A DNA stretch of 64,000 bases, from the NCBI RefSeq assembly GCF_010500835.1, contig NZ_JAAAMJ010000001.1:1-64000 (forward strand), written 5' to 3'. Shown piece after piece: positions 30,361-31,350 of the stretch; within the stretch, counting starts at the first letter, position 1; every line of letters starts with the position of its first letter. Under the pieces are notes generated by a model. The model did not search any database. It was not told the origin of the DNA and was given only the letters and a program-made list of their open reading frames with translations. The stretch comes from Aurantimonas aggregata (GTDB taxonomy: Bacteria; Pseudomonadota; Alphaproteobacteria; Rhizobiales; Rhizobiaceae). Position numbers and translations under genes: made by a program.

Positions 30361-30752
30361 AGGAGCGCCGACATAGGGCGACGCGAGGCGCCGGCCTCTA
30401 TATCACCCGCATCCGGGGCACGAAAGGGCAAATCGCGGCAGAAAACCCGGCCATTTGTGCCGAAAACCGCCGGTTTAGCTAATGAAGCGGCGTCACCTGC
30501 CTGTAGAGCTGCAGGTGGGGAGCATCGCCGGTCAGCACCACCCTCGTCGTGCGGATCCGGCGCCACCCGCCCAAGCTGCTGATTCGACTGTGCGAACCAT
30601 CACCATGCTGCATTGCACCAAGCGCAAGGCTGTTATGCGCATTCGCGTCTAGCGAGGCCGCTCGCAGCCACCTAACTTCCTGACACCGAAGCGGCGCAGA
30701 CAAATCACCAACGGCGCTTCAATCGATTGAAATTTTATCCGGGCGACACGAC
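30361..30752. other. Gene-poor region upstream of DUF1127, with a palindrome
   Basis: This stretch of 392 bases separates tRNA-Leu from the DUF1127 gene. No open frame in it has a ribosome binding site or a recognisable product. It has a 7-bp inverted repeat (cacctgc at 30494-30500, gcaggtg at 30511-30517) and a perfect 14-bp palindrome, TTCAATCGATTGAA, at 30718-30731. The palindrome is only 21 bases before the DUF1127 start. The promoter driving DUF1127 and the sRNA array should lie here, but I cannot assign -35/-10 boxes. Confidence 0.5.
30718..30731. promoter_or_regulatory. Perfect 14-bp palindrome before DUF1127
   Basis: TTCAATCGATTGAA is fully self-complementary and is followed by an AT-rich stretch (attttat). 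Its position 21 bases before the start codon makes it a candidate operator for a dimeric regulator, or part of the promoter or leader of the DUF1127-sRNA unit. No regulator is identified from sequence. Confidence 0.45.
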
Positions 30753-30896
30753 ATGAACCTCATGCGGTCTTACAGCAACTGGCGGCGCTACCGCGAAACG
30801 GTCAACGAGTTGAACCGGCTTTCGCAGCGCGAGCTTTCGGATCTGGGCATCTCGCGCTCCGACATTCCTTCCCTGGCTCGCCGCGCAATCGGCTGA
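30753..30896 (+). CDS. Small DUF1127 (YjiS-like) protein, CcaF1-type
   Basis: This 47-aa basic protein carries the DUF1127 signature: a tryptophan-containing basic helix (SNWRRYRETVNELNRLS) followed by RELSDLGISRSDIPSLAR. In Rhodobacter sphaeroides a DUF1127 protein of this size, CcaF1, is encoded just before a cluster of CCUCCUCCC-motif sRNAs, is co-transcribed with them and acts as an RNA-binding protein in their maturation. Here the gene stands directly before the same kind of array, so that role is the best inference. No strong Shine-Dalgarno is visible (cgggcgacacgac precedes ATG). Confidence 0.88.
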   Translation: MNLMRSYSNWRRYRETVNELNRLSQRELSDLGISRSDIPSLARRAIG

Positions 30897-30911
30897 CGCC
30901 TGACGACATCG

Positions 30912-31023
30912 AGTTTCGCGACGGCCCACCTCCTCCCGGGTCCTAGCGGATACGGGGCTGCCACTCCTCCTCCCAATCGGCAGTCTCATCCTAGTCGCCC
31001 GCCGGGTCCTCCCCCCGGCGGGC
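30912..31023 (+). ncRNA. Cuckoo/CcsR-like sRNA, unit 1
   Basis: Three hairpins follow the DUF1127 stop. Hairpin 1 (30923-30942) has a 5-bp stem and a loop with CCTCCTCCC at 30929-30937. Hairpin 2 (30958-30983) is CTGCC/GGCAG with CCTCCTCCC at 30966-30974. Hairpin 3 (30997-31023) has a perfect 10-bp GC stem with loop TCCTCCC. This is the design of the cuckoo/CcsR sRNAs: short stems that present an anti-Shine-Dalgarno-like motif, then a strong stem that ends or protects the RNA. The ends are approximate, as I cannot see separate promoters; processing from the DUF1127 transcript is likely by analogy. Confidence 0.8.
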
Positions 31024-31041
31024 GCTCAGAATTGCAGAGAT

Positions 31042-31153
31042 TTCACCGAAAGCCTTCTCCTCCCTAGGCTTAGGTGAATGTCGACCCGCGCATCCTCCTC
31101 CCAAAGCGCGCGGGTTTTTCTTGGTCGCTCGCCGGGTCCTCCCCCCGGCGAGC
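31042..31153 (+). ncRNA. Cuckoo/CcsR-like sRNA, unit 2 (divergent)
   Basis: This is the second three-hairpin unit. Hairpin 1 is longer than in its neighbours: outer stem TTCACC/GGTGAA (31042-31047, 31073-31078) and inner stem AAGCCT/AGGCTT, with CTCCTCCC in the loop at 31057-31064. Hairpin 2 (31084-31115) is ACCCGCGC/GCGCGGGT with CCTCCTCCC at 31094-31102. A run of five T (31115-31119) follows it, so it could itself act as a terminator. Hairpin 3 (31127-31153) repeats the 10-bp stem with loop TCCTCCC and differs from that of unit 1 by one compensated base pair. Confidence 0.78.
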
Positions 31154-31166
31154 GTGCCGGGAAACA

Positions 31167-31282
31167 AGTTTCGCGACGACCCACCTCCTCCCGGGTCCGA
31201 GCGGATTGGTGCCTGCGCATCCTCCTCCCAGCGCAGGTTCAGTAGCGACGCCCGTCAGGTCCTCCCCCTGGCGGGCGTCTTC
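31167..31282 (+). ncRNA. Cuckoo/CcsR-like sRNA, unit 3
   Basis: The 5' part is nearly identical to unit 1 (tttcgcgacg then cccacctcctcccgggtcc). Hairpin 1 (31178-31197) is GACCC/GGGTC with CCTCCTCCC at 31184-31192. Hairpin 2 (31212-31237) is CCTGCGC/GCGCAGG with CCTCCTCCC at 31221-31229. Hairpin 3 (31247-31279) has a 13-bp stem with one G-U pair and loop TCCTCCC, followed by TTCGTTT, and is the likely final terminator of the array. Loops are conserved while stems change with compensation, the mark of a structured RNA. Confidence 0.8.
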
Positions 31283-31350
31283 GTTTGTCGGGACGCACGT
31301 TCGAATTGCCGGCTCTTTCGGCAAGCGCGTTGCGCTGCTAGACTCGGCCC

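Follow-up and report, generated by a model that had tools for sequence, protein, structure and literature searches.

A conserved DUF1127 gene with three tandem alpha-r14-type RNA units and a putative LsrB-type promoter box in Aurantimonas aggregata

Several described systems of Alphaproteobacteria resemble the locus considered here, each in part. NfeR1 of Sinorhizobium meliloti, a member of the alpha-r14 family, is activated by LsrB and folds into three hairpins with the CCUCCUCCC motif in each, its three redundant loops blocking ribosome-binding sites (PMC10746234), and the SmelA075 and SmelA099 models of the same family have three and four such motif hairpins, respectively (PMC3927594). AbcR1 and AbcR2 (alpha-r15, RF02345) also carry anti-Shine-Dalgarno motifs and target transport genes, AbcR1 being activated by LsrB/VtlR, for which a consensus GCAT-N3-TG-N3-T is available (PMC8844928). 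Loci of the CIN1 type are defined, as cited in PMC10253847, by a short DUF1127 gene with CcsR-like RNAs; in Rhodobacter sphaeroides, according to the same source, CcsR1-4 are made as one precursor that is then cut, and the DUF1127 protein CcaF1 is RNA-binding. Some other DUF1127 proteins have sensor kinases as their target and make contacts with protein, not RNA (PMC12501420), while short DUF1127 genes activated by VtlR/LsrB include atu1667 of Agrobacterium and BAB1_0914 and others of Brucella (PMC7486931, PMC12595884).

The locus lies in a stretch of 64 kb of Aurantimonas aggregata, hereafter the window, and it is real, well conserved and functional-looking, although its family and its three-loop design are already known; the parts that add something are a putative promoter link to LsrB and a shortened third loop. 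The preferred reading, with a probability of roughly 0.8, is a conserved operon in which an LsrB-activated transcript would give rise to the DUF1127 mRNA and to three anti-Shine-Dalgarno sRNAs repressing transport and metabolic mRNAs.

The hairpin array and its family

The coding and RNA features of the locus are as follows.

30753..30896, plus strand: DUF1127 gene, 47 aa (PF06568, E = 2.5e-16)
30911..31030, plus strand: alpha-r14 unit 1 (RF02344, 60.1 bits), hairpins at about 30915-30950, 30954-30987 and 30996-31024
31037..31159, plus strand: alpha-r14 unit 2 (RF02344, 48.8 bits), hairpins at about 31042-31078, 31083-31116 and 31126-31154
31166..31282, plus strand: alpha-r14 unit 3 (RF02344, 63.4 bits), hairpins at about 31170-31205, 31211-31238 and 31247-31279
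31247..31286, plus strand: closing hairpin of unit 3 with the short T-rich tail TTCGTTT (terminator scan)

When folded alone, positions 30905-31285 form nine hairpins (-188.4 kcal/mol, z = -7.4, none of 100 shuffles as good), and this fold agrees with the compensated pairs on the arrangement in three tandem units that the initial annotation had proposed; the unit length of about 110 nt given there was too short, however, since the actual repeat period is 126-129 nt. The two loop sequences described earlier were both recovered: CTCCTCCC occurs in six loops, loop 4 being UCUCCUCCC and the remaining five CCUCCUCCC or UCCUCCUCCC, and UCCUCCC occurs in all three closing loops, where it is closed by GGG/CCC in this genus. 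The only six matches to CTCCTCCC in the window are all on the plus strand and all within the 300 nt of 30930-31229, and because shuffled sequence contains 3.9 matches on average anywhere in the window, their total is unremarkable and their clustering remarkable. A reading in which C-rich repeats have come together by chance, and without function, in a genome of high G+C content can thus appeal to a count that is not above chance over the whole window, but it has to place all six matches within 300 nt, it is opposed by the genus-wide conservation and the Rfam matches, and it is contradicted by the covariation described next; it can be regarded as extremely unlikely.

The claim that the stems vary in a compensated manner while the loops stay fixed was examined by aligning nine congeneric arrays and scoring the nine-hairpin structure for pairing and for two-sided changes. 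Across the 91 pairs scored, 99.6% of cells were paired, a figure that is flattered because the alignment scored was also the one whose consensus supplied the structure. Two-sided changes are the more reliable guide; these compensated changes were found at 22 pairs, as many as in none of 500 shuffles, and slid controls gave 0-5. The third hairpin of unit 1 does not vary across the nine species and is uninformative on compensation.

Identical loops on varying stems would suit recognition by a protein too, and this observation, together with the constancy of the third hairpin of unit 1 and the RNA binding reported for CcaF1 (PMC10253847), is consistent with the array being a platform or sponge for a protein, either the DUF1127 protein or a binder of C-rich RNA, and not a set of RNAs that pair with mRNAs. 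Set against this is the finding that loop mutations of NfeR1 abolish ntrB repression in a reporter assay (PMC10746234), so that pairing is the demonstrated mode for one family member, and the platform is considered quite improbable. By analogy with NfeR1, repression through anti-Shine-Dalgarno pairing is the most likely mode of action of the units.

With regard to family, the curated cut-off of RF02344 (ar14), 58.8 bits, is passed by units 1 and 3 but not by unit 2, whose match nevertheless has a genome-wide E of 1.3e-7 and which is kept in all congeners, whereas RF02791 (CcsR1; cut-off 65.3 bits) gave 35.7, 33.5 and 23.8 bits on the three units, all below its cut-off. The original assignment to a DUF1127-linked locus of the cuckoo group therefore holds, but the CcsR label within it is replaced by alpha-r14; the loops of this CCUCCUCCC (cuckoo) locus are, as stated there, complementary to Shine-Dalgarno sequences. 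The model matches mark the units as alpha-r14 RNAs (RF02344) of the cuckoo group with three hairpins each; every hairpin has an anti-Shine-Dalgarno loop, the third of which holds only UCCUCCC.

The likeness to alpha-r14 (NfeR1 and the SmelA075/SmelA099 models) extends from the three hairpins per RNA and the anti-Shine-Dalgarno motif in every loop to the variable, compensated stems, the presence of several copies per genome and a putative LsrB-type promoter box. It follows from the published norm (PMC10746234, PMC3927594) and from the RF02344 consensus, whose third loop is CCUCCUCCC, that three motif loops per RNA are not a variation, as had been supposed; what sets this genus apart is the reverse, namely a third loop reduced to UCCUCCC. 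The locus further differs from the single alpha-r14 genes in that three units stand in tandem behind a DUF1127 gene, the third stem is stronger and unit 2 is divergent. It could be speculated that, on one LsrB-controlled transcript linking a DUF1127 protein with nine anti-Shine-Dalgarno loops in this clade, the shortened third hairpins, of which one has the same sequence in all nine species, represent a specialised element, for example a docking site for the DUF1127 protein or for an RNase that sets maturation, and not a third pairing loop, although this appears rather unlikely.

The DUF1127 gene and its promoter region

The 47-aa protein encoded ahead of the array, already recognised as DUF1127 from its sequence, matches PF06568 in a profile search (59.5 bits; cut-off 23.3). 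The gene precedes the array in all nine genomes of the genus (the window and eight congeners). A tRNA-Leu lies upstream of the locus in the window and in each of the eight congeners scanned, and in all of them the CIN1-type order is seen, that is, a short DUF1127 gene followed directly by CCUCCUCCC RNAs. A uORF attenuator has been described for one DUF1127 gene of S. meliloti (PMC12218461); such an element was considered for the gene in the window and rejected, as the predicted leader is short and lacks an ATG.

Upstream of the gene, two promoter elements were delineated.

30614..30638, plus strand: LysR-type box TGCAC-N5-GCA-NN-GCTG-YY-ATGC, conserved in 11 aligned promoters
30672..30677, plus strand: -10-like element CTAACT, at a conserved position 35 nt downstream of the box

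The LsrB/VtlR consensus falls inside the box at 30624-30636; many relatives match it exactly, the window at all but one position. Chance alone often yields a 13-mer this close to a consensus, so that a single-sequence match of this kind is worthless alone, and what argues for a putative LsrB box is its conservation and the company it keeps. The box pattern has one exact match genome-wide, at the array locus, and a related box is found in 16 of 80 named trmFO loci, all 16 with DUF1127 and array and none without an array. When two mismatches are allowed, the pattern has two matches in the genome, but a backward control pattern has five at the same stringency, and for this reason the one of the two that lies before an sRNA candidate draws its weight solely from that neighbour. 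In Mesorhizobium the counterpart of the -10-like element is CTATCT at the same spacing, and transcription is predicted to start at about 30685, which would give the box a position of about -61 to -49, the same as that of the LsrB site of abcR1. A search of the genome with an LsrB protein from a relative, where its gene neighbours an ar15 gene, yielded a single clear orthologue at 67% identity, the next LysR protein reaching 29%.

Near the locus, a scan for the S. meliloti RpoH1 consensus with one fixed spacing and up to three mismatches allowed found no match, and a scan for the sigma-70 consensus found none. From the promoter sequence, control of the locus thus looks LsrB-type and not of the RpoH type known from Rhodobacter ccaF1 (PMC10253847). 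This bears on whether the locus belongs to the CcsR/CcaF1 type of Rhodobacter, in which RpoH would be in control and the DUF1127 protein would bind the RNAs and act in their maturation. The gene order, the loop motif and the DUF1127 partner are indeed alike, and a single precursor is probable here as well, but the units score far below the cut-off of the CcsR1 model, which has two hairpins as opposed to three per unit here, the protein has 47 aa compared with the 71 aa of CcaF1, and in place of an RpoH1 consensus match an LsrB-type box is conserved. Overall, this identification is improbable, while a maturation role of the DUF1127 protein, taken by itself, is possible.

Like atu1667 and BAB1_0914, the DUF1127 gene is short and follows a VtlR/LsrB-type box, with the difference that DUF1127 is here coupled to an sRNA array and that the regulation is a prediction. 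The conserved box would tie the locus to LsrB/VtlR, which the cited papers link separately to NfeR1, AbcR1 and DUF1127 genes.

Proposed working, targets and distribution

All closing hairpins had been described as terminator-like, but the terminator scan supports this for the last one only, the first two leading into linkers without a U-run; in the tail of unit 3, TCGTTT is invariant across nine congeners. Since only the last closing hairpin is terminator-like, one precursor cut into three RNAs is suggested. In the proposed sequence of events, the LysR regulator LsrB/VtlR would activate one promoter with its start at about 30685, a single transcript would span DUF1127 and the nine hairpins and end at the terminator 31247-31279, and an RNase would cut the unpaired linkers to release three RNAs of about 115-125 nt. 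Through their CCUCCUCCC-type loops these may then base-pair at GGGAGGAGG-like ribosome-binding sites and keep many mRNAs from being translated, probably transport and metabolic mRNAs in particular, and the DUF1127 protein may aid RNA maturation or stability.

Candidate targets were surveyed by counting patterns and by looking at a small number of genes. The patterns GGGAGGAG and GGAGGAGG occur shortly before ATG 18 and 33 times, respectively, compared with 5 and 8 for the backward patterns, which are a crude control, given that real ribosome-binding sites are rich in purines in any case. Among the genuine genes behind such sites are those of two DctP solute-binding proteins (G000 C20, C24), an ABC ATPase and an aldehyde dehydrogenase, and other such sites precede spurious frames.

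RF02344 matches are present in 46 of 61 related genomes, and within the genus each of the nine genomes carries three units in tandem, spaced by about 125 nt, most of them with weak single matches elsewhere. Of 80 named Rhizobiales loci, 53 showed a chain of TCCTCCC motifs within the 3 kb preceding trmFO, and by a simple pattern test 26 of these 53 array-bearing loci have a DUF1127-like frame, with examples in Rhizobium, Sinorhizobium, Mesorhizobium, Phyllobacterium, Brucella and Aurantimonas; such anti-Shine-Dalgarno sRNA arrays hence precede trmFO across many Rhizobiales. The nearest named trmFO relatives of the window belong to Aurantimonas (85% identity), in which four units were counted at one locus and about six at another, while Pseudaminobacter and Mesorhizobium jarvisii have three units whose nine loops all carry the full motif. 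In the loci of the latter two species (L101, Mesorhizobium jarvisii; L106, Pseudaminobacter arsenicus), two consecutive DUF1127-like frames stand before the units and downstream of one LsrB-type box.

Other sRNA-like loci

L047:1044-1160 (G000:C4:32043-32159) matches ar14 weakly, at 38.3 bits; it has three hairpin-like stretches, but its motifs are degenerate (CTTCTCCC, TTTCCTCCC and CTCCTCCTTCC). It was not counted as a fourth ar14 copy, because it lacks CTCCTCCC and has no aligned counterpart among the weak extra matches of the congeners. In five congeners (L180-L184; G002, G003, G006, G008 and G007), a further sRNA-like stretch with CCTCCTCCC lies away from the array and has a terminator-like end GAGCCCGG...CCGGGCTCTTT; it likewise does not align with C4:32043-32159.

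AbcR1/AbcR2 differ from the array units in fold and neighbourhood, and an ar15-like candidate is located at a separate locus of this genome. This unannotated sRNA candidate (L131:1565-1700; G000:C1, about 575443-575578) contains CCTCCTCCC and two further TTTCCTCCC stretches, has a strong terminator and a fold z of -8.2, and adjoins a predicted aminotransferase gene; its ar15/AbcR-like score is 25.4 bits, below the cut-off of 40, and one of the two 2-mismatch matches to the LsrB-like box lies about 65 nt before its first motif.
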